Position numbers and translations under genes: made by a program. A stretch of 64,000 nucleotides of DNA from assembly GCA_013368315.1 (NCBI GenBank), contig JAACJM010000184.1, forward strand, positions 106,138 to 170,137, written 5' to 3'. The stretch's first letter is position 1. Each line of letters opens with the position of its first letter. The notes beneath the pieces were generated by a model, which was not told the origin of the DNA, ran no database searches, and was given only the letters and a program-made list of their open reading frames with translations. Below are positions 2,340 to 53,710 of the stretch, piece by piece. This DNA is from Tetrapyrgos nigripes. Lineage: Eukaryota; Basidiomycota; Agaricomycetes; Agaricales; Campanellaceae.

Positions 2340-5300
2340 ACTAATATTGTATTAGTGTCTCACTAGTATTCTCATTCATGACTCCCTCGGAAGATGAACG
2401 TCGCGTCGCGTTAACGCCAAGTTACCGCACACACGTGATGGGGCGGCGGCAATGTTTTTTGTTTAGCTGCAGACAAACAAATGGACAACGTCGAGGGCGA
2501 TGAGCTCAAGGCGTTCTGGTCCGAGTCAACGCCGTGTTTTCAACTTCCCTCAACGTCGAAGACGATGACCTCAAGGAATGGTAGCAGGTATGTATCTTGT
2601 TGTAAGTCCTGTTTTTGCCCTAAACGCATATTAGGTCGCAGAACTGAATTCGGTGACTACTCACCTCGACGCCAACCCGAGACATTGAGAAAGCGACTCT
2701 AGAAAAATCCACGCCATCCCCCGGAGCCCCTCCGACAGACCTAGTCAAAGCCGACATTGGATTGGGCGCTGTAATTTGGCTGAGGGAGGATGGGATGAAG
2801 TAGTCGTTGTGTCGAGGGTTTGGGGGAATTGAGGCTCCATCAACGGCTACGACGACGACTGCAAGACCCAAGCCTATCCACCGGGTCACTACACCTTTGC
2901 ATCAAGACCGGAATCGTCTGACAGGAGTCAGGGCTAGGGCTAGAGGGGTTAAAAACGTACGTCCTTCCTTCCTTTTCTTTCTTTCTTTTTCTACAAAGTT
3001 AGCTATAGCTAACCTGTTTCCTGTTTTTTCTCTCTTTTTCTTCGACATACAGCCCATCTCCCCACCCACCCTCTCCATATCCTCCTCCTCACAAAGGGCA
3101 TCCACATTTACGCGAACGCAGACCAGGACGTGTTTATGGGTTTACCACCATTCCCACCCCAGCTCCCTTTTCGTTAACGACCCTTCCCCCTCTCCCCACC
3201 ACCACGACAACCATAACGGGCCCGACTTCCCCCTTCAACCTTAACCTTGAACCCTACGCCGACGCCGACGCCTACAACACTGGTGAAGGTGAAGACAACG
3301 GCAGTGACAACTTTATTGGTGAAGAAGAAGATGAAGAGGAGGGTTAGGAAGACCCCGTCCCCGACCTCACCAACAAATCATCTTGCTCCTAGAACGGGCG
3401 AGGTTGTTGGAAAGATTTAGGGTAGTTTGAGCGGCTTCAAAGCTAAGGCTAAGGGTTAATTTACATTTCTAGGTTTCGGAGGTTAGGGGGGACTGATGGG
3501 GAAAGGTGGAGAAGCGAAGGCGAAGGGATAAAGAGAATTGGATAATTGAGCTTCGTAACCTTCACCAGCTTCTTCCGTCTCATGCTCGCATCGACACCGT
3601 ACCCAAACACTACCGACTCTCTACCTTCATGACGCGGCAACTGTCATGCACACCACCCCCCACTTTAAATAAACTCTAATAACGTGTCGTCGGGTATGAA
3701 ACATTGATGTGTGATGTGCTCGTCCAATGGTACGGTACATTTTCTATGTGCTTGTACCTCGCGCGTTTGACTGATTGGGCTCTATAGACCACAGCCTTAT
3801 TAGCCTACATGGCCTTGAGCAACACAGCTCAACCCAATTCCCACATCCTCTTTGACCAGTGAACCTCTAGCGGAAGGCTATAACGTTGAGTTCTCAAGCA
3901 CCCATGGGATGTTGGGTACGTGATTTCCTTCTCTCGGTGTTGTAACCTGTCGACTAATCCTGTTTTTCCCCTTTGCGTCTATGCTCTTTGCGGATTCGGG
4001 CGCGCACATCTCTACAGATCCATATTCTTTGGTTAAGCGGGCCTGGTTAAACCATGTTTTGACCTGATCTAAATGTTATTAGGCAGCAGAAAGGCTAGAC
4101 GGTGTCAAGAAGAGGAGGAGAAGGATGTCGAGTTCTAGCTGGTGTACAATATGTAGTTTTTCTCGTAATAATTACTGATTATCATACTTATATAGACATT
4201 GTAAAGTAAACCTCGTACATGTCTGCGGATTATGGCTTGATATCGAATAAAGCTCTCTCACGGTATACCTTTGCGTCAACTGGCTTTAGCTGTGTGGCCC
4301 CGAGGGTATCTAAGTCTTAGAATCTGTGACGGAATACCGTCTGAGGCCGTATTTCGGTCCAAAAGATCATATTACTATTCCGTACGGTACAACTACACCC
4401 AAAGTGGCTTAGCTTTGACTCGAGTTGCTGGGTCGGGGAAGAGGGAGACGAAGGAAGGGAGGACGTTTTAGCCGAATGAGTACCGTTGGCATCGTGAATG
4501 TCAAGTGGAAGAGGGCGGGATATATGATGACTAGTGGGGTAGAGGCGTAATGGTGTTCATGGGCTTAAAAGAGGACGTAGACGTAGGCCGGAATGCGTAT
4601 AGAAGGCTGACGAGCGATGTAAGACGGTGAGATACACAGCTGTTGGACGAATATAGCTCACCTGAGACATCTATCCCTCATATTCTCCAACTACACCTTT
4701 ACCTCTTTTTTCTTCTTCATATTCTCCGGCCCGCAGAGCTAACCACTGTGTGCCTTCCGTCGAGCCCATCCAGACCTCCGTTCCCTCATAACGAGGATGG
4801 TTCTGGCATGGATGACCTCGTCTGTTTGATGATTGGGTGCGGAGAGAGCCAGCGTCAGAGTAGGAACTGCCGAAGACTGTGGAAGAGGGTGGATGAGTTT
4901 CGTGAGCTGTTGTTCTGTTGATAAGAGCAGACTTCGTGGTTTCGGGAGAAACACGGGAGATGGGTTCTTATCACGTCACCATGGATGACGCGTCCACTCG
5001 CATGCCGTTTCGAGTGACTGGGTCCGGTAATACAGGCAACGAGAATGGCAAATTGTGAGATGAGGCGATAAAATCGGAGTAGGGACAGCCATAGGACCAT
5101 TCGTTCAGAACGCGGACGATGGAACGAGGTTGGAACGAGGGATTGACTGGCAGAGCGTGATGACCTCGAGGAGTGTGTTCGCCTCATTGTTGAAGGGAGG
5201 AAGGTTCCTACGTTCATTTGACTGTATCAGAGGGCTGATTCCTGCATGTACTGAGGACGTTGACATAGGCTAAGGAGTAAGCAAGGAGACAAGGCCCAAA

Positions 5301-6617: not shown

Positions 6618-6860
6618 ATGGACTCGCCACCCCCTCTCTTGAACCACCCGCCAATCCAGATGTTCTCAAATGCACAGGGGTTTTCCATGAACGAATGCAC
6701 ATTTCAAGTTGTTGGTGGAAACGTCAATAATTACTCTAGTGCGTCACAAATCAAAGTTTACGAAATAACAATTCTCTAAGTACTTACGTTCATCTCAGGC
6801 GGGAGTGACCACGCGGAAGTGCGTTGAGACTTCATTGGTGAAACACAACTGATAACTTTG
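6618..6860 (+). pseudogene. 5' fragment of gene with fungal GGN-type N-terminal motif
   Basis: The ORF starts MDSPPPLLNHPPIQ and continues with MFSNAQGFSMNECTF, then QVVGGNVNNY. Short N-terminal segments of the form 'F.NA..F.....TF..VGGN.N.Y' are common at the start of Agaricomycete proteins of varied architecture (kinase-like, NACHT-type and uncharacterised proteins); this is from general knowledge of such proteomes. After NNYS a GTGCGT donor at about 6742 and an acceptor TTCATCTCAG at about 6799 would join a second exon reading SGSDHAEVR, then an in-frame TGA where tryptophan would be plausible. No downstream domain is visible before the next gene, so this looks like a broken or truncated copy. 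Confidence 0.35.
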
Positions 6861-7148
6861 AGCCACACAGTTCTTGTATATCGTGAAAGGACCCTTACGA
6901 TGCTTTGATGATGGCCTGCGAGACTACCATTTTGTGGTCCAACAACGGCGAGAGACGGGAGATAAAGTGATGCTGATTGTACGGAGATTTTCGCCAAGTC
7001 AAGAGAGGGATCGAGATAATTTTGCAGTCTTGCTGGGAAAGTGCTGGTATGTGTCTTGAGTTTATGCATGCATGAATATTGTTCTTCAACTGTGAATTAT
7101 CTAGTTGGGCTCCATTTGCAATGAAAAAACTCATGAAGCTCACCATAA

Positions 7149-10100
7149 ATGGGGATCCATGTTTGGCTGTATCATCTGCAGGTAGTCTCCTATTGCTGTT
7201 TCCTTTTGGTGATGTTTTGAATCTTTAAACAAAACAAGCTGTATACACATGGCAGGAACACATTAAAGGCACATGGTTGTTTGAAGCGGAAGCAAAGATA
7301 AAAATGGTAAAATTTCACTGAATTTTCTGGCTTACTGTACACTAATTATTACTGAATCAAGTATTTCAAGATTACTGTATGGCTTAAATTATATGGTGAC
7401 AAGCATTTATACTGATAAACACTAGGCATTTTTTTACAATAATCACTCTATTTGGCCAGGTGATTGGAGATGGGGAGATTTATGGAGCGGTTCTGGGAAA
7501 TATAAGAATTTGAGACTTTGGGATTTAAATGGGAACCTAGTTTTGGATCCTGAGCAGCTGGAGTCTTGTCATCTGGCTTATCAAGAAGCAACACAATCTG
7601 TGGTATGGAATCTGTACCATATATTTATAACCCACTAAAGCAATACAGATGCAAAGAGCCAGACATTTTTGGTCAGAGCTTGATTGGGCTCAGGATGATT
7701 ATAAAAAGAAATTCAGTGAGTCAGGGACTGCTATACAACATAAAATTAATACAAAGAGTATATCATTGATTGCAGGTTCAGTAACCATTCAACAGTTAAT
7801 AGAGAGTCATATGAAGGAACAAATTGTGAGTATCAACTTTGCCATATCATCCTTTCCATCTGTTTCCAGGTTCCCTCTCAGTCTCTGCTGACTCCTGTTC
7901 CTTCTGGTCTCTGAAGTGGGTGAGTGCCTCTGTTTCCAGGTCCCCCTTCCCCCTCAGTCTCTGCTGACTCCTTTTCCTTCTGGTCTCTGCAGTCTGTGAG
8001 TGCCTCTGTTTCCAGGTCCCCCTTCCCCCTCAGTCTCTGCTGACTCCTGTTCCTTCTGGTCTCTGCAGTTTGTGAGTGCCTCTGTTTCCAGGTCCCCCTT
8101 CCCCCTCAGTCTCTGCTGACTCATGTTCCTTCTGGTCTCTGCAGGAGGTGAGTGCCTCTGTTTCCAGGTCTCCCTTCCCCTCAGTCTCTGCTGACTCCTG
8201 TTCCTTCTGGTCTCTGCAGTTGGTGAGTGCCTCTGTTTCCAGGTCCCCCTTCCCCCTCAGTCTCTGCTGACTCCTGTTCCTTCTGGTCTCTGCAGTTTGT
8301 GAGTGCCTCTGTTTCCAGGTCCCCCTTCCCCCTCAGTCTCTGCTGACTCCTGTTCCTTCTGGTCTCTGCAGCGGGTGAGTGCCTCTGTTTCCAGGTCCCC
8401 CTTCCCCCTGAGTCTCTGCTGACTTCTGTTCCTTCTGGTCTTTGCAGCGGGTGAGTGCCTCTGTTTCCAGGTCCCCCTTCCCCCTCAGTCTCTACTGACT
8501 CCTGTTCCTTCTGGTCTCTGCAGTCTGTGAGTGCCTCTGTTTGCAGGTCCCCCTTCCCCCTCAGTCTCTGCTGACTCCTGTTCCTTCTGGTCTCTGCAGT
8601 CTGTGAGTGCCTCTGTTTCCAGGTCTCCCTTTCCCCTCAGTCTCTGCTGACTCCTGTTCCTTCTGGTCTCTGCAGTGGGTGAGTGCCTCTGTTTCCAGGT
8701 CCTCCTTCCCCCTCAGTCTCTGCTGACTCCTGTTCCTTCTGGTCTCTGCAGGAGGTGAGTGCCTCTGTTTCCAGGTCCCCCTTCCCCCTCAGTCTCTGCT
8801 GACTCCTGTTCCTTCTGGTCTCTGCAGTTTGTGAGTGCCTCTGTTTCCAGGTCCCCCTTCCCCCTCAGTCTCTGCTGACTCCTGTTCCTTCTGGTCTCTG
8901 CAGCGGGTGAGTGCCTCTGTTTCCAGGTCCCCCTTCCCCCTGAGTCTCTGCTGACTTCTGTTCCTTCTGGTCTTTGCAGCGGGTGAGTGCCTCTGTTTCC
9001 AGGTCCCCCTTCCCCCTCAGTCTCTACTGACTCCTGTTCCTTCTGGTCTCTGCAGTCTGTGAGTGCCTCTGTTTGCAGGTCCCCCTTCCCCCTCAGTCTC
9101 TGCTGACTCCTGTTCCTTCTGGTCTCTGCAGTCTGTGAGTGCCTCTGTTTCCAGGTCTCCCTTTCCCCTCAGTCTCTGCTGACTCCTGTTCCTTCTGGTC
9201 TCTGCAGTGGGTGAGTGCCTCTGTTTCCAGGTCCTCCTTCCCCCTCAGTCTCTGCTGACTCCTGTTCCTTCTGGTCTCTGCAGGAGGTGAGTGCCTCTGT
9301 TTCCAGGTCCCCCTTCCCCCTCAGTCTCTGCTGACTCCTGTTCCTTCTGGTCTCTGCAGTTTGTGAGTGCCTCTGTTTCCAGGTACCCCTTCCCCCTCAG
9401 TCTCTGCTGACTCCTGTTCCTTCTGGTCTCTGCAGGAGGTGAGTGCCTCTGTTTGCAGGTCCCCCTTCCCCCTCAGTCTTTGCTGACTCCTGTTCCTTCT
9501 GGTCTCTGCAGGAGGTGAGTGCCTCTGTTTCCAGGTCTCCCTTCCCCTTCAGTCTCTGCTGACTCCTGTTCCTTCTGGTCTCTGCAGGAGGTGAGTGCCT
9601 CTGTTTCCAGGCCCCCCCTCCCCCTCAGTCTCTGCTGACTCCTGTTCCTTCTGGTCTCTGCAGGAGGTGAGTGCCTCTGTTGCCAGGTTCCCCTTCCCCC
9701 TCAGTCTCTGCTGACTCCTGTTCCTTCTGGTCTCTGCAGCAGGTGAGTGCCTCTGTTTCCAGGTCTCCATTTCCCCTCAGTCTCTGGTCTCTGCAGTTTG
9801 TGAGTGCCTCTGTTTGCAGGTCCCCCTTCCCCCTCAGTCTCTGCTGACTCCTGTTCCTTCTGGTCTCTGCAGTGGGTGAGTGCCTCGATTTCCAGGTCTC
9901 CCTTCCCCCTTAGTCTCTGCTGACTCCTGTTCCTTCTGGTCTCTGCAGCAGGTGAGTGCCTCTGTTTCCAGGTCTCCATTTCCCCTCAGTCTCTGGTCTC
10001 TGCAGTTTGTGAGTGCCTCTGTTTGCAGGTCCCCCTTCCCCCTCAGTCTCTGCTGACTCCTGTTCCTTCTGGTCTCTGCAGGTTGTGAGTGCCTCGATTT

Positions 10101-13013
10101 CCAGGTCCCCCTTCCCCCTTAGTCTCTGCTGACTCCTGTTCCTTCTGGTCTCTGTAGTCTGTGAGTGCCTCTGTTTCCAGGTCTCCCTTCCCCCTCAGGC
10201 TCTGCTGACTCCTGTTCCTTCTGGTCTCTGCAGGACGTGAGTGCCTCTGGTTCCAGGTCTCCCTTTCCCCTCAGTCCCTGCTGACTCCTGTTCCTTCTGG
10301 TCTCTGCAGTGGGTGAGTGCCTCTGTTTCCAGGTCCCCCTTGCCCCTCAGTCTCTGCTGACTCCTGTTCCTTCTGGTCTCTGCAGCGGGTGAGTGCCTCT
10401 GTTTCCAGGTCCCCCTTCCCCCTCAGTCTCTGCTGACTCCTGTTCCTTCTGGTCTCTGCAGGAGGTGAGTGCCTCTGTTTCCAGGTCCCCCTTCCCCCTC
10501 AGTCTCTGCTGACTCCTGTTCCTTCTGGTCTCTGCAGATGGTGAGTGCCTCTGTTTCCAGGTCCCCCTTCCCCCTCAGTCTCTGCTGACTCCTGTTCCAA
10601 CTGGTCTCTGCAGTTGGTGAGTGCCTCTGTTTCCAGGTCCCCCTTCCCCCTTAGTCTCTGCTGACTCCTGTTCCTTCTGGTCTCTGCAGTTTGTGAGTGC
10701 CTCTGTTTCCAGGTCCCCCTTCCCCCTCAGTCTCTGCTGACTCCTGTTCCTTCTGGTCTCTGCAGCGGGTGAGTGCCTCTGTTTCCAGGTCCCCCTTCCC
10801 CCTTAGTCTCTGCTGACTCCTGTTCCTTCTGGTCTCTGCAGTTTGTGAGTGCCTCTGTTTCCAGGTCCCCCTTCCCCCTCAGTCTCTGCTGACTCCTGTT
10901 CCTTCTGGTCTCTGCAGCGGGTGAGTGCCTCTGTTTCCAGGTCCCCCTTCCCCCTCAGTCTCTGCTGACTCCTGTTCCTTCTGGTCTCTGCAGTTTGTGA
11001 GTGCCTCTGTTTCCAGGTCCCCCTTCCCCCTCAGTCTCTGCTGACTCCTGTTCCTTCTGGTCTCTGCAGCGGGTGAGTGCCTCTGTTTCCAGGTCCTCCT
11101 TCCCCCTGAGTCTCTGCTGACTCCTGTTCCTTCTGGTCTCTGCAGTGGGTGAGTGCCTCTGTTTCCAGGTCCCCCTTCCCCCTCAGTCTCTGCTGACTCC
11201 TGTTCCTTCTGGTCTCTGCAGTTTGTGAGTGCCTCTGTTTCCAGGTCCCCCTTCCCCCTCAGTCTCTGCTGACTCCTGTTCCTTCTGGTCTCTGCAGCAG
11301 GTGAGTGCCTCTGTTTCCAGGTCCCCCTTCCCCCTCAGTCTCTGCTGACTCCTGTTCCAACTGGTCTCTGCAGTTGGTGAGTGCCTCTGTTTCCAGGTCC
11401 CCCTTGCCCCTTAGTCTCTGCTGACTCCTGTTCCTTCTGGTCTCTGCAGTTTGTGAGTGCCTCTGTTTCCAGGTCCCCCTTCCCCCTGAGTCTCTGCTGA
11501 CTTCTGTTCCTTCTGGTCTTTGCAGCGGGTGAGTGCCTCTGTTTCCAGGTCCCCCTTCCCCCTCAGTCTCTACTGACTCCTGTTCCTTCTGGTCTCTGCA
11601 GTCTGTGAGTGCCTCTGTTTGCAGGTCCCCCTTCCCCCTCAGTCTCTGCTGACTCCTGTTCCTTCTGGTCTCTGCAGTCTGTGAGTGCCTCTGTTTCCAG
11701 GTCTCCCTTTCCCCTCAGTCTCTGCTGACTCCTGTTCCTTCTGGTCTCTGCAGTGGGTGAGTGCCTCTGTTTCCAGGTCCCCCTTCCCCCTGAGTCTCTG
11801 CTGACTTCTGTTCCTTCTGGTCTTTGCAGCGGGTGAGTGCCTCTGTTTCCAGGTCCCCCTTCCCCCTCAGTCTCTGCTGACTCCTGTTCCTTCTGGTCTC
11901 TGCAGTCTGTGAGTGCCTCTGTTTGCAGGTCCCCCTTCCCCCTCAGTCTCTGCTGACTCCTGTTCCTTCTGGTCTCTGCAGGAGGTGAGTGCCTCTGTTT
12001 GCAGGTCCCCCTTCCCCCTCAGTCTCTGCTGACTCCTGTTCCTTCTGGTCTCTGCAGTCTGTGAGTGCCTCTGTTTCCAGGTCCCCCTTCCCCCTCAGTC
12101 TCTGCTGACTCCTGTTCCTTCTGGTCTCTGCAGATGGTGAGTGCCTCTGTTTCCAGGTCCCCCTTCCCCCTCAGTCTCTGCTGACTCCTGTTCCTTCTGG
12201 GATCTGCAGGAGGTGAGTGCCTCTGTTTCCAGGTCCCCCTTCCCCTTCAGTCTCTGCTGACTCCTGTTCCTTCTGGGATCTGCAGCGGGTGAGTGCCTCT
12301 GTTTCCAGGTCCCCCTTCCCCCTGTTTCTTCTGCTCCCTTTTACTGACTGTTTTTCAGACTCAGTCCAACAACTACAAGGGAAATCCATTATATCATGAT
12401 AACAGATTTCAAGGAGTCAATGGTTCTGATACTGAACTAGAAATCACCATTCAAGATTCAGGTAAGTACTAATATCTAGTATCTGACCTAGCTTGCTGTC
12501 AATTTTCTTATATACCTCTTTAGCAATGGCCCTGGATAGCCCTAAATCTTCAGATGATTATATGGATGTTGACTCTTCCGTCATGGATGGTTATTCCACC
12601 CCTTCAGCTGCAGCAAACTCCGAGGTCCTTTTTCTTTTTCTGTTTCATGCTATTTCTCAGCTCATTCTTTTACAAATTTTCTTCCATTATTAGTTTCACA
12701 CCGTTTTGGCTTTCTCCACTGCCTCAATTGATTTTGGTGAAGATGGGATGGAGCTGGACCCACAGCCAACCTTTTGCCCAATGGCAGTCCATACCAGGTC
12801 CACCAGGGCTGGAATATTCTCTGGATACCCTGATTGTCCCTCTTTCCACATTCAACTCCCTTGTTGTTGTCCTCAGTCTCCTTGGACAACAATGACAACT
12901 ACAATTGTAGTGAGGACCTTACTGGGACTTGTTCCACTTTATCTAGTGTTGTAAATGTCCCCTCTTATGCCTCAGGTTCTGTCTGCATATATATGCTACC
13001 TGGTCAGTTTTAG
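7149..13013 (+). CDS. Unrecognised gene with phase-0 tiny exons and a 59-unit one-codon exon array
   Basis: I do not recognise the protein. Exons that join in frame: 7149-7181 (MGIHVWLYHLQ; an in-frame TAA sits just before the ATG), 7256-7306 (EHIKGTWLFEAEAKIKM), 7362-7376 (YFKIT), 7426-7602 (contains WPGDWRWGDLWSGSGKY and LRLWDLNGNLVLDPEQLE), 7649-7825 (contains RARHFWSELDWAQDDYKKK, ends KEQI), then the tandem array, then 12359-12461 (TQSNNYKGNPLYHDNRF...) and 12524-about 12624 (ALDSPKSSDDYMDVDSS). Every junction from exon 1 to the exon after the array is phase 0; the intron at 12462 is phase 1. Introns are 46-75 nt with GT-AG ends. Skipping the whole array or including any number of 3-nt units keeps the frame. 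The 3' end is uncertain: a weak donor GTCCTT at 12625 could lead to 12694 (FHTVLAFSTASIDFGEDGMELD) and a last segment (SLDNNDNYNCSED) ending at 13013. Possibly a TE-associated or lineage-specific gene. Confidence 0.55.
7871..12349 (+). repeat. 76-nt tandem array: 59 intron-plus-one-codon units
   Basis: There are 59 copies; triplet 1 is at 7917-7919 and triplet 59 at 12286-12288. Of the 58 spacings, 55 are 76 nt, one is 75 and two are 57. Each unit contains GTGAGTGCCTCTGTTTCCAG, a C-rich stretch, TCTCTGCTGACTCCTG (branch-like CTGAC) and TTCCTTCTGGTCTCTGCAG, then three variable bases, then the next GTGAGT. Triplet counts from reading all copies: TTT 11, CGG 11, TCT 10, GAG 10, TGG 7, TTG 3, CAG 3, ATG 2, GTT 1, GAC 1. 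Acceptors are CTGCAG or TTGCAG except copy 1 (CTGAAG) and copy 31 (CTGTAG). The first intron would be 7826-7916 and the last 12289-12358, ending TTTTTCAG after a TACTGAC branch site. It is thus either a splice-competent micro-exon array or a minisatellite grown from one intron. Confidence 0.9.
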
Positions 13014-24942: not shown

Positions 24943-27900
24943 CTACCCTCTCTCCCTACTACATGTGCCCCCTCCAAATGTAGCGACGTCTTCGTCGCTG
25001 TCCTCTGAACCTGCGAGACACGCCAAAGAGTTAGCCTCGCTAAGAACATCCGATAAATCCGATAAATCTGCGACTTCTGATGGAGTGTCATTGCACCCGT
25101 CATCGGCCATCAAAGCTCCGTTGTCGTCGCCATCATTGCCATCGATGGGAAACACTCCCTTTCTTCCCTCCTTCAACTGTAACTCCAATGCCGTCTGCTC
25201 CCCGTGCAGCTTCGTTCCTTCCCTTGGTATGAACGCTCGCAACCTTCTGGAACTGAAAAGCCCGTTGACCAGAGTCCCATCCAGAGTCTCCAGTTTGTAG
25301 GAATTAGCGATTTTTTCCGCAATACGTCGCGGCTGTGACCACCTTGGCAGCAATTTCTTCTCCGTCTTGAAGGTGTAATCGAGGTCACTCCGGTACACCT
25401 GCACCAGCTGGCCCTTCCGGAACGTCACCTCCCTGGGAGACCGCTTCATTACCCGCCTATCAAACTCGTTTTTTCCGCTTTTCCGCACTCCACATTGTAG
25501 CGTCATAGCCATCCAGACGTTGCTGCGCAACGTAGGCCATCTGCCACTCAACATCGTCAGGACTCAATAATGATGAGCTCTCTTCAACGGGTGTTGGCTT
25601 TGTGTTAACGACTAAACTGAGGAGGAGCTCTTTAGGAGAGAAGTGAAGGGACTTGAGAATGCGATTATTGAGAATCCAGAGGGCCTCCTCCAGATGATCG
25701 GGCCAGGTATGTGGCAAGTCCTCCACCCGTACATCTTTGCACTCATCCTCCCCTAAATCCGGTGCGCACAGCCTCTTCAAAACGCTGAGTAGAAGCTTGT
25801 TGCCGCCCTCGACAAGCCCGTTGATCCATGGTGAGTACGCTGCCACGACATTAGTTTTTACCCCGTACCATTCGCAATAATCTCGGACTTCTTCACAGTC
25901 AAAATGGGATCCACCATCGGTCTGGAACACATCCGGCAGGATGTAACCGTGAAATATCTTTCCCAGGCCTTCCACCGTTGTCTTCCCACTGCCCTTCACT
26001 CTATACTTGAAGGCCCATATATGCTGTGAGTACGAATCCAGGTATACCCCCAATGTCGTGTAACCCCCTTTACCCTTAGGCATAGCCAAGTAATCACCGA
26101 CTAGTAGCTCAAATGGGTGTCTCCTGGTGACTGGAATCAACAGGGAGTGCAGGTGAGTCCGCCCAAAGTTTTTACATTTCCCACACCTGCTGATAGCTGT
26201 CAGGATTGATTGGTCCAGGTTGGGGCTCCAGATTTCGTCCAGTAGCTCCATCTTTACTGTGTCCCGCCCAAAGTGACCCCCTTCCTTATGTTTCGCCTCT
26301 GCCCGTTCAACAGCCTCCTTTCTCGTGACACACTCGACCCTGGATCTCGCTCTTGTACTACTACCACCTCTCAAACGCCACAGCTTCGCTCCTTCTATCA
26401 TGTACCCCTCGGCTTGGTGTCTAGCATGCTGCCTTTGCCTTACCGACATCCCTGCAGTGAGGCCTTTTAATGCGTCCACAACCTCCAACAGGATGGGTTC
26501 GTCAGCAAATCGTTTCTGCAGTGACGCCACCTCACTGTCCATTGCAACTTGCATTACATTGTGCACCAGCCCATGCGCATGCTCCCAATCCTCACTGACG
26601 GTCCATTCACTTCCGTCGCCTAGCAACCTCGGTGTCTCCTCCCACTTCCTGCTCAACCCGTCCGCGACCACGTTCTTCTTCCCTGGTATGTGCCATACCT
26701 CGACGATGTTGTGAGCTATGATGCCATCCCGCCACCACGCATGGGTAGCATTTAGATTAGGGTTTAGGATGACATCACGCAGTGCCTGGCAATCCGTCTC
26801 AATCTCCACCGGTGACCCCCATATCGTGTCTGAAAACTTATCCAGGCCACACTTCAACGCCGCGAACTCGAGGAGGAAAGGTTTGTATTTTTCTTCGGTT
26901 TTTGAGGTTCGTTTTGACATGAATGCTATAGGATGTGTCTTCACGGTGCGACCGTTTGGGAGGACCGTCTCGAAACGTTGGGAGAGCACGGCTGCAAAGC
27001 CTTCTTTGCAACCATCTGAGGTGACAATGAAGGGTGTGCCATCGAACCTAGGGCATTTCAGGACGGGTTCTGAGGTAAGCAGTTTTTTCAACTTGACAAA
27101 GGCTTTGGTGTGTTGACCTGTCCATAGGTCAGCTAATTTGTGTCTCTGTTTCAAAGTTCGGTACGTGGTTTTGGAGCATGGGTTGGGCAACGGAACATTG
27201 ACTAGGCTCCTCAGTGGTCTCTCCACCTTGGCATAGTCCTTGATCAGGTCCCGAAAGTGACTGGTGAGCCCAAGGAAGGATTCGAGGTTGAGTGCGTCAT
27301 CTGGTTGTCGCCAGTCCACTATGGCGGTCAACTTTGTCAGGTCAGGTGTTACGCCTTGCGGACCGACATTAGCACCAGCAAATACACCTTCCCTTGTGAA
27401 GAAACTGGACTTCGTTGCTGAGAGTGATAGCTTCCTTTCCCTCACCCGTTCCAACAACCTAGTGAGTTTTCCCATCATCTCCTCAAACATATCCGCTGCT
27501 GATGCCCCATCGTCCACAAACAGTTCCAATACCCCATCAGTCAGAAGATCGCCCAGTAGCTCTGCTGTCATTTGTGCAAATGTCGACGGTGCACCAGTAA
27601 GTCCAAACGGCATCCTTTTGTACCAAAAGTAATCCTTCCCCTCCACATAGAAGCATGTGTAAGGTCGGGATTCTGGGTCCACTTCGCAAGCGTAGAACCC
27701 CGATGCGAAATCGAAAAGGGATAAGTAGCGATGACCGCTCACTCGTTGCTGTTTGGCTCGGATGTCACCTTGTGGCATAGGTGCGACTTTTGTAACTTTG
27801 TTGACGGCGTCAAAATTTTGACATATCCGCCACTTCTGAGCAGGTGTAGTTTTGGGTTCCTCTTTGGCTGGCTCTGGACGGTGTGGGAGTGGGAAGGCCG

Positions 27901-29494
27901 GCTCTAGTCCAGCGAGAACACATTGCTCGTTAAGGCGGTACTGTAGTTCTTCTAGTGTCAGACCACCGCCTTCATGAGCCTTCTGCGCCAGTGTGGTCGG
28001 TGAAACACACTTGACCTGGTCTGGCCGACACCGCTCTATAATCCCTGCCTCCAACATCTCGTCTATCTTCTGGTGGAAAAATTTCTTCTGAGGAGGAGTT
28101 AAAGGCCTCTGGTGAACGTTTTTGGGGAATTGTGCATTGTCAGGTATGTGCAGCTTATGCACTGCATTGTTTACTGCGTGGACCTCGCTGACCGAAAGTG
28201 CGAAACAGTCTGCGTAGGAACGGAGCATCGCTACCACTTGGCAACGCTGACCATCTGTCAAGTCGTCTCCAATTGTGACCTCCTCCAGTATCCGGTTGAC
28301 TCTAGCTGGTAAGAATGGGTCTGATTTCCGTGTGAAGATGTTCTCATTCCTTAACCCTTCTATAGGCATTTCACCACCAAGAGGCCCTTCGACAGTGGCC
28401 TCGTCAGCAGTTACATGGCAGACTGGGTGGCCTACAGGTACGGAGGTGTCAGTTACAGGGTTTATAGGAGGGTGATTTTCAATGGAGACTTCCCTCGAGG
28501 GGGGTGCACGACTACCCCCCACGAAGTTTTTCACGTGCTTCCTCCAGCGCGGCCTCCATTGTCGTTTCCCCACCACCATTGCCTTCCTTTTCACCTTCTT
28601 CGGTACCATTTCTGCCACCTCCATGCTTTCCACTTTTCCTCGTGAGTTCTTCCGTTTCCAACGATTTCGTTTCATGTTCCTTTTAGCTCTCCGTCTTGCT
28701 AATATGTCCACGCCCTGCCAATACCAGAATATCCATGGCTCTTCCTCGTCCTCCACCTCTTCTAGCGTTACTTTGCCTTTGGAGGTATGTTGTATTTCAT
28801 TCGACGCTACCGTCACTACCTGATTAGTAATATTCTTTTGTTGTTCCAGATGATCGGTGGGGACTCGCCTCGAGGGGGGTTCATTGTGATTGCCCCCCAT
28901 TTCTTCTTCATGCTTTGCCAGCAGCTCGTTCTGCAGAGTTATGGATCCAGACCCACAAGGTATGTGTATAACATCCCCCTCATAATTATGGTCTGCCCTA
29001 AACCTGGTTAACAGAGGTTTCCCAAACAGGAATTCCCAAGCTCCTCCACTATCGAACACCTCAAATTCTCCCTCTGCTTCTACCCCTCCCAACAGTAGCA
29101 GGCCTTTCCAACATGCTAGACTTGGCACAATTGCTCCGTTTGCCATGCGCAACCGTTTGTATGACAGTGTCCATCCTGTGAGTCTGTCTCGGACTTGATG
29201 ATATAATTCCTCTGACATGGCTGCAACCATAGCGCCGTCATCGAAAAAGCCTTTCACTGTCACCGTCCCGTCTATGCCTACTATTCCCACCTCATGGATG
29301 AATGGTACTGGCTTTGTATCCTCCTCCCGCACCAAATAAAGATCAACAATCTCGTATTCTGATGGAATGATTACATTGTCAACCAGGGTATGGTTATCTG
29401 TGGTCCATGAGGGGCTGTCGTCACTTCCCCTAAGCAGCGCCTCCCCCTGCCTAGGGTTCTCTACATCTTTGCACCTTCCGGCATCATGGGCCAT
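24943..29494 (-). CDS. Pol polyprotein (PR-RT-RNase H-IN), one frameshift near the 3' end
   Basis: The first 1344 residues are open from 29494 to 25460. Order: aspartic protease-like segment (GFFDDGAMVAAMS, residues about 82-94; the usual D-S/T-G triad is D-D-G), reverse transcriptase (FDFASGFYACEVDPESRPYT; active-site box LFVDDG instead of YMDD-type spacing residues), RNase H (FIVTSDGCKEGFAAVLSQR), zinc-binding region and integrase core (LLVGDYLAMPKG, FQTDGGSHF, NGLVEGGN as D, D, E). At about 25475, in a run of A residues on the coding strand, the frame shifts. The C-terminal part (RKGQLVQVYRSDLDYTFKTE and onwards) continues in another frame to 24943. The tail is acidic; there is no chromodomain. 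The frameshift may be a real mutation or a homopolymer sequencing error. Confidence 0.9.
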
Positions 29495-34675: not shown

Positions 34676-37600
34676 GGGTACTTCCTTTTTGGGAAGAATA
34701 GTCAAAAAATGCTAGAAAATTCTGATTTTATTCTAATGGCTGTTGGCAGTGCACAGAAGCTGCTGAGGCAGGCCTAGTGGTTGTTTCCCATGGTACAGGG
34801 TTAGATGGGAAGGTACCCACAGTCAATAGCATCCCAAATCTGTATTTGGAATGGGAATATGGGCTGTGGCTGAACAAAAAAAGACAAAATACATTTCCAG
34901 AGCCAGCAATTAAAAATGAATTGGGTACATCAGGGAGTACATTCTTGGTAGCTGAATCAAAATATCACATTATATTTACAATATATGTAGCGATTCTTGA
35001 GATATGGCCAAAATACTGTATAAATATAGCAAAAGAGCAGGATGGGTACTGGTTATTGTGGTAAAACAGCTCTGATCATCATGTGGGCTGGTACGATATT
35101 GTATTGACACTTTCTAAATGTGGGAATATAGCACATTCTATTATATCTTCAGGTGTTGGGGTGCTATGCCCAAAATACTGTCCAGAAATAGCAAAATTTG
35201 AAATGGCCATGGACACTACATAATATACCATTAGATATATGTGTAAATATTTATACAAGCATATTTTGGGTCCCTAAAACCGAATTTCCACTTGGATAAT
35301 CCCTATTTATAGTGGCTGTGGTGCTATTTCATATGTACCCCTAAAGCAAGGTACCTGTGGCACCTGCATACATCTGGTTTATAAATTTGTGTGAGTGGGT
35401 ATATACATGTTATTCAGTGTCCTAAACACGAATATGAGTTTAAAATTCCCATATCTCCAAGATCCAGGACTCTATGCTATGTTTATTTCCTAAAAAGCGA
35501 ACTTAGTCCTAATTTCTCCCTTCTTTGGGGCATATATACTTTCATTGATATCTACTTGGTATTATGGATGATTCAATGTCATTCTGCTTATGTATATGGT
35601 TCAAAATGATACTATCTTCGCTTTTCAGAGAATAAACCTAACATAGAGTCTTTGTTGTGACAGTATTATTTCAGGATATTTTTGTTCATTTTCTCTTTCT
35701 TTTCTTCATCAGTCACTGCCTTTTGATCATCATTTTGTTCATCCTTTGCCCTATCTTTTGTTCATCTTTCCTTGATCATCTATGCACAGCTACATTCCCC
35801 TGTTTCATCATTTGTTCATCTTTGTATGATACATCTCTTACAGGGATACTATCCACACCTTGTTCATCTTTTGTTCATCTTTTCATGATACATCTTTTAC
35901 AGGGACAACAGGCTGTACTTTGATTGTTCTGGACAGTTCTCTGATTCCTTTCTTCACTTTACTCAGCTTTTATCTTTATTACTGTTCTGTGTATATAAGC
36001 TTAGAGTAGTAGCTCCCTAGTCCCCATCTTGACCTCTTTGTCTTGGAACTAGGTGAGCATCTCATGTATTTCTTGTTTTCACTTAGTATTAACTTCGTCT
36101 TGGGACTAGGTTCTCATTGTCTTCTGTCTACTGTTGCTTTAAGCCAAGTGTGTTCTCTTTACCACAGTCTTGGATCTTGAATATATAGCAGTTTTAACCT
36201 CATATTAATGTTCAGGGTGTTGAATAAGATCTATATACCCACTCACACAAATTTATAAATGAGCTATTTGCAGGTGCCACAAGTGTCAAGAACAGGTTCA
36301 GATAGGACTGGATGCCTCTCAGGCCACCACACAGGAGCCAAAGACAAAGTAACAGAGCAAATAGAATAGATAAGAGTGAGTAGCCACAGATGGGTCCAAG
36401 TCTACATAGTACTGAGACAAGGCTGAGCAGTATGGATCATAGGGAGCACAAGTGGACAGACTAGAGACCTCTCTACAAAGCCCTGAAGTATATATGACCA
36501 AAGGGACAAAGAAGCGAAGCCTAGATCAATAGGTATTGATGGAAAGGAAGAACTATGGAGAAATAAAGGAACAATGGAGAAATAAAGGAACAATGGAGGA
36601 ATCAAGGAACAATGGAGGAATCAAGGAGAAACAAGGTAGAACTATGGAAAAACAAGGAAGAACTATGGAGAAAGGAGGAACCATGGAGAAACACCTGGAA
36701 GAACTATAGAAGTGACAGGAACAAAGGAAGCAAAGCAAAGAAGAAGATCTGGATAAGCCAAAGTACTGGAAAGAAGACTAGAAGTAAAAGGAATGATGGA
36801 AGCAAAGCAAAGAAGAAGTAAAACAAAGAGGAACAAGATCTGGATAAGCCAAATTACTAGAAAGAAGACTAGAAGTGAAAAGAATGAAGGAAAACATGAA
36901 GAGATTTATGACAACAAGCACCTTTGTTCAGGGGTAATGATTCAATAGCACAAGAACCAATGTAAATAGAGCTTATAAAAGTGGAGATTCTGATTCAGGG
37001 ACTCGAAATACCCTAGTAAAAATATTTGGACATATATCCAATAGTGTAGTATGGAGTGTCTATTGCCATTTCAAGTTTTGAAAATTTTGGACAGTATTTT
37101 GGACTGTAGAGTCATGTATCCTTAAGATATAGGAATTTTAACCTGATATTCGTGTTTAGGACACTGAATAACATGTATATACCCACTCACACAAATTTAT
37201 AAACCAGATGTATGCAGGTGCCACAGGTACCTTGCTTTAGGGGTACATATGAAATAGCACCACAGCCACTATAAATAGGGATTATCCAAGTGGAAATTCG
37301 GTTTTAGGGACCCAAAATATGCTTGTATAAATATTTACACATATATCTAATGGTATATTATGTAGTGTCCATGGCCATTTCAAATTTTGCTATTTCTGGA
37401 CAGTATTTTGGGCATAGCACCCCAACACCTGAAGATCTAATAGAATGTGCTATATTCCCATATTTATAAAGTTTTTATGCAAAATCATACTAACCCACAT
37501 GATGATCAGAGCTGTTTTACCACAATAACCAGTACCCATCCTGCTCTTTTGCTATATTTATACAGTATTTTGGCCATATCTTGAGAACCGCTACATATAT

Positions 37601-50830: not shown

Positions 50831-53710
50831 ATGACGATCTTTACTGAAGACGATTACGGGAGAGACATGATCCCAGAACGATGGGAACAGGACATAATGG
50901 AGGAATTGTTGGGGAAAGAAGAAAGAATAGATGAAGAGGCGCCAGGGACACCAAACCTGAACATCCGCGCAGGGTTCACAAAGGCACAAGAACTTGCAGA
51001 GGCAGCCCAGAACGTCCAGGTCGACGTACCTCTTAAAGATAAGATTCCTTCGCAATATCATCAGTTCCTACGAGTCTTTGACAAACAAACCTCAGAGCGA
51101 TTACCGAAATGTGGCGAATGGGATCATGCTATCGAATTAAAACCGGACTTTGAACCACGCCCCTGCAAAATGTATCCTTTATCCCCAAATGAACAAAAGG
51201 AACTGGATGAATTCATCAAGGAAAACTTAGAGAAAGGATATATAAGACCGTCGAAATCTCCTTGGCAAGTCCCTTTTTCTTTGTAAAAAAGAAAGACGGA
51301 AAACTACGACCAGTACAGGACTACCGTGCTTTAAACAAAGGGACCGTCAAAAACGAATACCCCCTACTGCTTATATTGGAACTCGTAGACAAACTCAAAG
51401 GGGCACGAATATTTTCCAAAGTCGACCTTAGATGGGGATATAACAACGTACGCATCAAAAAGGGAGATGAATGGAAAGCGGCGTTTAAAACCAACCGCGG
51501 CCTCTTCGAACCAACGGTGATGTTTTTCAGTCTTATGAACTCTCCAGCTACATTCCAAGCGATGATGAACACTCTATTCAAGGACCTGATCGACTCCAGA
51601 AAAGTCGTGATCTATATGGATGATATTCTCATATTCACAGAATCACTAGAAGAACATCGATACACGGTGAAACAAGTATTGGCACGACTCCATGATAACG
51701 ACTTATACGCTAAACCGGAAAAATGCACTTTCAAAACCAATTCAGTGGAATTCCTCGGCCTTATCGTTTCACACAACACATTGGCGATGGACCCAGTCAA
51801 GGTCGAGGGCGTGACCAAATGGCCAGTCCCACGCAACGTCAAAGACGTACAATCATTCCTCGGCTTCGGAAACTTTTACCGTCGTTTCATACGCGATTTC
51901 TCAAAAATCGCACGACCACTGTTCGATCTCACAAAAAAGGAGCACCCACGGGGATGGTCCGAGGAAGCTCAAACAGCTTTCCAAGCACTCAAAGATACGT
52001 TTACGACTTCACCAGTCCTTCTCATGCCTGATCATTCTAAACCATACCGAGTAGAAGTTGATGCGTCAGATTACGCTACGGGAGGTATCCTGCAACAACA
52101 AGGACCGGATGATAAATGGCATCCAGTAGCCTACCTGTCAAAAGCGTTATCCGAAACTGAACGGAATTACGACATTCACGACAAAGAACTGCTAGTGATC
52201 ATACGCGGACTTGAAGCCTGGCGACACTACCTTGAAGGTGGACCGCATACCATCGAAATCTTGACCGATCACAATAACCTTAGATACTTCACCACCGCTC
52301 AGAAACTTAGCCGACGACAAGCAAGAATGGCCTTATTTCTGACCAGATTCGACTTTATGCTCACACACAAACCCGGGAACTTGAACCGAAGTGACCCACT
52401 CTCTCGGAGATCAGACCATAAAGAGGGGGTCGAAAACGACAACAAAGACAGGGTCTTGCTTGACCCCAGATTCTTCAGAATTCGAGCAACATGGCCAGGA
52501 ACGGTAACCGCAATAGGAGATGCAGAGTTGAAAAGGCGGATCAAGGAATGTCCGAAAAAGGATGCTGAAGTCATAAGTGCGTTACAAACCATCTTTAACA
52601 ACGGACCACGCGCTTTGGCAAAAAATCTACAGGAATGGAACTACGAAGACGGAATCGTCTTGTTCAGAGGGAAGATCTACATCCCAAACGATCAACAACT
52701 CAGACAGGACATCGTTAGAATGCATCACGACAGCCTTACTGCAGGACACCCGGGACGATTCAAAACATACGAACTCGTCAGTAGAGAGTTTTGGTGGCCT
52801 GGTATGTCAGTATTCGTTCGTAACTATGTTGAAGGATGCACTACCTGTCAATTAACCAAGGCAAATAACCACCTGACGCATGTACCATTAATTCCGAACG
52901 AAAATACCAGAACGACCCTTTGGTACCATTACAACTGACTTCATCACGGATCTGCCAGAATGTGACGGCTTCAATGCAATTCACGTCACAGTCGACCGCT
53001 CAACAAAAACAGTCGTCATTTCTCCATGCAGAAAAGATATCGATAGCAACGGAACAATCGACCTATTGTTCGACAACACTTGGCGATGATACGGCTTGTG
53101 GGACAAAATGATATCTGACCGCGGACCTCAATTCGCAAGCCAAGTAATGAAAGGGATCTACGCTAAGTTAGGTATCACTTCGGCACTCAGTACAGCTTAT
53201 CATCCGCAAACAGATGGCGAGACAGAAAGGTTCAATCAAGAACTTGAACAATACCTTCGAACCTTCTGTAACTATCGTCAGGACGATTGGGTTAAATACC
53301 TACCTTACGCCGAATTCTGTCACAATACCCGAATCCATTCAGCAACCGGGAAATCGCCGTTCAAACTACTTCACGGATATCTACCCTGGCTCTTCCCTTC
53401 CATCAATCCGACTTCACACGTACCAAAGGTTGAAGAACGCCTCCAGAACTTAGATACTCTTCGAGAGGAACTAAAAGCAAGTCTGGTGACAGCGGCAGAA
53501 CTGATGAAAGAACAAAACAAGGACTACGCGAATGAAGGGATGAAGTTTAAAGTTGGGGACAAAGTATTGCTAGACGGAAAGAATTTGAAGACAACAAGGC
53601 CGAAAGCTAAGTTGGCAAATCGTCGTCACGGACCGTTCGAGATCACTGACGTTATCAGTGAAGTCAATTACTGACTCAAATTACCGAATAGCTGGCGCAT
53701 TCATCCTGTC
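50831..53710 (+). pseudogene. Gypsy pol: RT, RNase H, integrase (broken)
   Basis: The pre-RT linker (FTKAQELAEAAQNVQVDVPL) is followed by a frame change at about 51.27 kb. The RT ([38 protein letters not shown]) and RNase H (VEVDASDYATGGILQQQ, NYDIHDKELLVIIRGLEAWR) lie in a 558-residue ORF at 51262-52938. The integrase zinc finger (MHHDSLTAGHPGRFKTYELV ... CTTCQLTKA) ends this ORF. The frame shifts near 52.91 kb; the IN core continues (TTDFITDLPECDGFNAIHV) with a TGA at about 53.09 kb, then MISDRGPQFASQVMKG and HPQTDGETERFNQELEQYL at 53096-53674. A TGA after EVNY at 53672 stands where arginine is expected. Confidence 0.88.

Follow-up and report, generated by a model that had tools for sequence, protein, structure and literature searches.

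The window analysed in this study is a stretch of 64,000 nucleotides from the genome of the agaric Tetrapyrgos nigripes (Agaricales, Campanellaceae). On its forward strand it carries a gene that is interrupted, at positions 7826-12358, by an array of 60 predicted introns and 59 candidate one-codon exons. The unit of the array is 76 bp, made up of a 73-nt intron and a 3-nt exon, and a pattern and sequence count showed that the introns and triplets fill the interval without remainder. The array opens with a 91-nt intron (7826-7916) with an AAG acceptor, followed by the first one-codon exon, TGG (7917-7919), and it closes with the 59th, CGG (12286-12288), and a 70-nt intron (12289-12358) whose 3' half has diverged from the repeat. 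Fifty-five of the remaining introns are 73 nt long, two are 54 nt and one is 72 nt. An initial annotation of this DNA had proposed 59 candidate one-codon exons between complete introns of 73 nt, with two exceptions of 54 nt. The exact tiling agrees with the first part of this proposal; the lengths hold for 57 introns and fail for the 72-nt intron and for the first and last. The splice signals described there were recovered, with GTGAGT donors in all 60 introns, CAG acceptors in 58 (AAG and TAG in one each) and CTGAC in 58, the two introns that lack CTGAC being those of 54 nt. A recount also found the 59 window triplets to be free of stops, as had been stated. The array has the properties of codon-sized microexons, as a single gene contains tens of 3-nt exons, each flanked by complete introns. 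It does not have the structure of stwintrons, because every one of the 60 introns possesses a full donor and acceptor of its own and a codon lies between neighbours.

Upstream of the array, a spliced model places eight 5' coding exons on the forward strand (6618-6738, 6799-6818, 6871-7046, 7105-7181, 7239-7306, 7426-7602, 7649-7715 and 7776-7825), and it is open from the ATG at 6618 to 7825, where it ends with SHMKEQI in phase 0. Exon borders were set from sequence, by homology with the paralogue C221, whose exons follow a parallel order with parallel phases. This homology yields two exons, 7649-7715 and 7776-7825, where a single upstream exon at 7649-7825 had initially been assumed. Downstream, three coding exons on the same strand (12359-12461, 12524-12624 and 12694-12954, spanning 12359-12954) encode a predicted acidic tail (TQSNNYKGNPLYHDNRF...). 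Their frame is open to 12945 in the model, and inspection of the sequence places a TAA stop at 12952-12954. The C221 model, array included, has an open frame of 403 residues from ATG to stop. The exons on both sides of the array are in phase 0 in C221 and in the window array, designated C180, and for the latter the open model from 6618 to 7825 and from 12359 supports the earlier claim of phase 0 on either side. Splicing directly from the outer donor at 7826 to the outer acceptor at 12358 would likewise preserve phase 0, as expected of one 4.5-kb intron that had grown by minisatellite expansion, with inner splice signals inherited from the duplicated unit and non-coding triplets. Tandem repeats inside introns are commonplace, and this alternative is weighed below.

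A DNA search with the array start matched four further genomic loci (C103, C221, C83 and C131), all of which share a homologous upstream gene part with the window gene. The genome was also searched with the generic pattern GTGAGT-N45..75-CAG-NNN-GTGAGT, which fixes the donor, the acceptor and the three-base gap only and leaves the intron body free. It occurred at least 346 times on the forward and at least 44 times on the reverse strand, against 14 and 20 for the pattern read backwards. An origin of the array geometry by chance was ruled out by this excess. The generic searches led to arrays with three further intron sequences, unrelated to the first (type A), and the genome holds at least 14 arrays with four unrelated intron sequences, all with 3-nt exons. 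Counting sites, which take in a few flanking sites, the type A arrays (73 nt) are C180 with 59, C103 with 20, C221 with 65, C83 with 38 and C131 with 22; the type B arrays (66-67 nt) are C28 with 41, C34 with 24, C304 with 56, C314 with 18 and C156 with 29. Type C (68 nt) comprises C96 with 19 and C164 with 20, and type D (82 nt, TAG acceptor) C368 with 24 and C412 with 29. Host-exon copies were counted for types A, B and C, and every copy found, the numbers being lower bounds, adjoins an array (5/5, 5/5 and 2/2, respectively). Clear enrichment over the reversed control in the genome was not found for GTAAGT/CAG (13+10 versus 9+7, forward+reverse), GTATGT/CAG (3+2 versus 5+8), GTGAGT with longer introns (10+11 versus 14+9) or GTAAGT/TAG (4+8 versus 3+4).

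The patterns behind the triplet lists require a three-base exon, and exons of other lengths appear only as gaps. Gaps were inspected in C83, C131, C96, C164 and C304; C412 has a further seven large ones. Near positions 4243 and 4792 of C304 (L024), a locus otherwise made of 3-nt exons, two 2-nt exons (GA) lie between complete introns and may represent skipping, decay or an assembly error. Variant donors occur in five units spread over C83, C131, C96 and C164. At about 4450-4602 of C228 (L021), two near-identical tandem GTAAGT introns enclose a longer exon-like stretch, perhaps a young or different array.

Among 1522 candidates, none was homologous to the type A protein at E <= 1, and this protein had no Pfam match above the cut-off; the homologue evidence presented below therefore concerns type B genes only, and expression of the window gene and a function of its protein are putative. 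The dN/dS values of the type A exons (C221-C83, 0.041/0.054; C221-C131, 0.042/0.054; C83-C131, 0.019/0.051; and C180-C103, 0.22/0.35, disturbed by a C103 frameshift) show mild constraint at most and were set aside as support. The C103 frameshift is a single base in an A-run of an upstream exon (L009, 4118 and upstream), and the array splice sites are kept. Long tandem repeats lie 3' of the C103 array (L009, 6445-7012, 7542-8040 and 8621-8927), with periods of about 171, 145, 152 and 8-48. The frameshift in this sister copy and the outcome of the homologue search would fit a window gene that is itself decayed or silent, in which the architecture is real and this copy makes nothing. We consider this rather unlikely, as the window model reads without interruption from ATG to stop and all window donors are intact.

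The position of the variable bases within the unit is informative for all four types. Column diversity was calculated for units of modal length only (334 units in 12 arrays and 36 units in two). In 10 of 14 arrays (all but C103, C96, C164 and C314), the three triplet columns outranked every other column of the unit in variability, and in the 12 arrays their mean diversity was 3.3-53 times the mean of the intron columns. An ordinary minisatellite was rejected on account of this concentration of variability in the triplet columns. The 85-bp repeat of C368 and C412 was first taken as a negative control and proved to be the fourth array family, with variable triplets, so that the comparison of variability has no matched negative-control repeat. 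Within the triplet, the third base varied least in 10 of 14 arrays, which is the expectation if it is the amino acids that vary. Across the 12 arrays, both flanking introns were identical in 195 pairs of units (81 in C304, 47 in C156r, 32 in C221, 29 in C180, five in C83, one in C28 and none in the other six), and 131 of these pairs had different triplets. The triplets are, then, largely uncoupled from the surrounding sequence. In C180 and C221, however, most such pairs have the triplet in common (19/29 and 21/32), as recent block duplications would explain. In C304, 65 of 81 such pairs differ in the triplet, 23 of them at all three bases, and in C156r the figures are 40 of 47 and 20. A dedicated mutator acting on the exon between identical introns, in place of selection on ordinary mutation and recombination, might produce pairs of this kind. 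However, the lower variability of the third base and the codon-level preferences described next resemble selection on amino acids, and the block duplications in C221 and C180 show recombination to be active. We know of no mutator of this kind and regard such a process as very unlikely.

No stop codon was present among 458 triplets, a set that includes some flanking codons (for example CCA in C221, C83 and C131, the end of the upstream exon), whereas 23.5 were expected when each base position was shuffled within arrays; none of 5000 shuffles was free of stops. When distinct triplets were counted once per array (128), there were again no stops versus 4.31 expected (P = 0.0044). The force of this test is limited, as fifteen triplets with an expectation of at least 2 were absent, 12 of which are sense codons, and GTA (expected 15.0) and CTA (11.1) were more strongly absent than any stop. 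Codons for Phe (60 observed, 29.7 expected), Asp (63, 32.8), Arg (70, 44.7) and Glu (33, 18.7) were found above the shuffled level, and those for His (2, 23.8), Cys (2, 15.6) and Val (17, 48.8) below it. The preference appears to act on whole codons rather than on single bases. The order of the codons was compared between paralogues, and at least 31 of 200 shuffles aligned equally well in nine of ten pairs, with 11 of 200 for C221-C83. Over 1017 compared bases of coding flank, C83 and C131 show only 25 differences. By these alignments, codon order differs between close paralogues and is not conserved.

The hosts of the type B arrays belong to a known protein family. They match PF01926 (MMR_HSR1, P-loop GTPase) with 26.2 bits against a cut-off of 21.9, and the window gene lies outside this family. 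Stretches of the type C and type D contigs match a type B GTPase protein by tblastn (E 4e-13 to 2e-18), and the array design is found in P-loop GTPases for three of the four intron families. A NACHT match in type B was below the cut-off and limited to one exon (E 0.026), and it was absent from the result that gave PF01926. The combination of NACHT and ankyrin that marks the nank genes of T. melanosporum was not found, as type A has no Pfam match above the cut-off and type B has PF01926. The deposited models on type B contigs (P0001, P0003, P0007 and P0012) end before the array or skip it, four examples of one-codon exons missed by gene finders. Two other T. nigripes GTPases, P0005 and P0006, have C-terminal parts with a QRYIDQRYIDQRTI repeat and without the motif that flanks the arrays, and their tail is predicted to be unrelated.

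On the 5' side of the array, all five type B genes have micro-exons with diverged, non-repeated introns. The series starts with 6 nt and 6 nt (3 in C34), continues with GAT or AAT and then TAT or TAC, and ends with a nine-base exon, for example GGAAAGACA, and GAG. Joined to the preceding exon, the micro-exons spell WFCHAYVKSYDYGKTE in C28 and close variants in the other four genes, and the corresponding motif of the YDYGKTE type is uninterrupted in homologues (WFGHCYYMEHDYGKSE in P0022 and WFGHSYVPKYNYDRTE in P0030). The nine-base exon GGAAAGACA (GGGAAGACA in C28) was picked with a homologue in view, a choice that unguided spliced alignment omits. Spliced alignments from the homologue residues beat 60 of 60 shuffles at five of five loci for P0022, at four for P0030 and at three for P0009. 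The best path to P0022 contained separate one-codon D/N and Y exons at four of five loci (C28, C34 with a gap, C314r and C304) and a two-codon NY instead at C156r, and at several loci the path to P0030 departs from this (NH in C28 and C304, for instance). Because the type B loci are paralogues, these alignments are not independent tests. They provide good evidence that the predicted one-codon exons of type B genes carry conserved coding sequence.

The reading of the window array as one 4.5-kb intron is distinctly unlikely in our view for several reasons. First, variability is concentrated in precisely the three bases between AG and GT, and this is repeated in four unrelated intron families. 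Secondly, there are no stops among the triplets. Third, the neighbouring micro-exons contain conserved codons.

Homologues of cDNA-like appearance were found in a search with the type B C-terminal region, which gave 17 proteins, six of them jgi proteins from contigs of 1063-1554 nt. These six are uninterrupted across the intron sites of the T. nigripes micro-exons and carry a YDYGKTE-type motif (identical in three of them), after which they enter a variable segment at the position of the array (for example EGGLGGGRLGGRLGHLRLGLGGRGGGLGHLRL in P0087 and IIEKRRRWFDFLLELEEERGEEERGVVRF in P0122). We infer from their sequences that the six are assembled transcripts. Between GN and VPVI, P0121 carries 20 additional residues with the appearance of a retained intron, and there is an additional stretch in P0125 too. 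Array-likeness was scored from type B array composition over the first 30 residues of the segment, leaving out P0060 and P0021, which have no motif. In four of eight scored homologues, this segment was more array-like than any other window of the protein (P0087, 1.31 bits per residue; P0122, 0.46; P0124, 0.14; and P0123, -0.21), and another window was the most array-like in P0121, P0125, P0009 and P0030. The AlphaFold model of P0087 has a mean pLDDT of 84 and falls below 50 at residues 1-3, 232-250 and 252-258. The variable segment starts at residue 235, is modelled mostly at low confidence and lies after the GTPase part and before the C-terminal helices, the position that it would also take in type B. 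In the P0009 model the corresponding stretch, 297-306, is likewise below 50, as are 1-20 and 74-77. Foldseek found no match for the P0087 model in the PDB at E <= 0.001; its weak best matches, which include immunity-related and EngB GTPases with a query TM-score of at most 0.29, were not used as evidence.

On the accepted view of splicing in fungi, short introns with strong signals should be recognised singly, by intron definition, and a 3-base exon itself need not be recognised. Each 73-nt unit of the window array would be a complete intron recognised in this way. Removal of all 60 introns would join the upstream protein part to the acidic tail through 59 in-frame single codons, and the product would contain a variable protein segment. 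Our preferred interpretation, to which we assign a probability of about 0.74, is that the triplets are genuine codon-sized exons coding for such a segment and that the near-identical introns probably serve as recombination handles. The proposal of one-codon exons between complete introns in the initial annotation gains support from the paralogous and unrelated arrays, the variability of the triplets, the lack of stops and the match of neighbouring micro-exons to homologues, to which the variable segment of the cDNA-like proteins is added here. Because the introns are near-identical, unequal exchange would be likely, and any breakpoint in an intron would move whole codons. Exchange or conversion anywhere within an intron could in this way add, drop or reorder codons with frame and splice sites untouched, and selection may keep the codons diverse. 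Splicing in T. nigripes, recombination through the introns, diversifying selection and a recognition role are all inferred from genomic sequence, and the last of these, with self/nonself or other partners, is suggested by the behaviour of codon order alone. More tentatively, the introns may be recombination scaffolds for a binding segment that is stored codon by codon in agaric GTPase-type and orphan proteins, a fast-evolving recognition repertoire convergent with truffle NLRs. Exchange anywhere in such an array would edit the protein one residue at a time and keep the frame safe.

It is possible, if on balance doubtful, that the array is chiefly a generator of isoforms in which any donor is joined to any later acceptor, and this would be compatible with codon-sized exons that encode a variable segment. 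All 60 window donors are identical, so skipping of triplets would always be in frame, and the available portions of reports on truffle NACHT-ANK genes describe alternative splicing of codon-sized exons (PMC4986451, PMC10197012, PMC3689799, PMC9815663). However, the cDNA-like homologues each contain a single segment, a few tens of residues long, for which skipping is not needed.

The initial annotation stated that no gene with such an architecture had been described. This does not stand, since truffle NACHT-ANK genes carry tens or dozens of codon-sized (3-bp), alternatively spliced microexons according to the accessible parts of PMC4986451, PMC3689799, PMC9815663 and PMC10197012, and codon-sized microexon arrays were already known. 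In the accessible part of PMC3778014, nothing was found on NACHT microexons. The truffle and T. nigripes systems are alike in having tens of 3-bp exons per gene in an expanded fungal family, and the truffle exons are said to diversify a C-terminal domain. They differ in that the truffle hosts are ascomycete NACHT-ANK proteins and those found here are agaric P-loop GTPases and an orphan family, and in that alternative splicing has been reported for truffles whereas the T. nigripes arrays are known from DNA alone. The hnwd-type WD-repeat NLRs of Podospora also have very similar repeats with a few highly variable positions, and these repeats are reshuffled as units, as far as the available text of PMC9815663 describes them. 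In Podospora the conserved repeat portion is itself coding, whereas in T. nigripes it is intron and the protein would receive the variable codon alone.

Other systems with small exons or repeated introns were compared on the sections available of each source. The bicycle genes of aphids are fast-evolving families of many small exons, with a mean of about 17 and more than 100 microexons in the megacycle gene (PMC9168663). Their internal exons are nearly all in phase 2, whereas the T. nigripes exons are single codons in phase 0 between repeated introns. The sister stwintrons of Xylariales are also near-identical spliceosomal intron families in one fungal genome (PMC12403724), but they are nested and occur at new, scattered positions and not in tandem arrays with variable codons. 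Accurate splicing of ultra-small exons, in fungi as well, is exemplified by the 1-nt exons of Fusarium CYP621A (PMC12940212) and of plant APC11 and VPS55 (PMC8831610), which are single conserved microexons, unlike the variable arrays of T. nigripes.

Our literature search did not find codon-sized arrays described in a basidiomycete, in GTPases or in an orphan family, nor did it find a description of tandemly alike introns of four unrelated sequences with the variability placed in the triplets. These aspects, the basidiomycete setting, the GTPase and orphan hosts, the tandemly alike introns and the variable triplets, appear to be new in that sense. If the arrays are spliced as read here, a variable protein segment is stored one codon per exon, the design of the truffle NLRs is more than a single curiosity, and a link between introns, recombination and the fast evolution of recognition proteins becomes testable.

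Two further features were observed in the window outside the array gene. Short tandem repeats with periods of 11-21 are clustered at 36550-36707. Two long frames, at 25460-29494 on the reverse strand and 51262-52938 on the forward strand, contain reverse transcriptase, RNase H and integrase domains or zinc-binding parts by Pfam and are identified by these predicted domains as fungal LTR-type retroelements.
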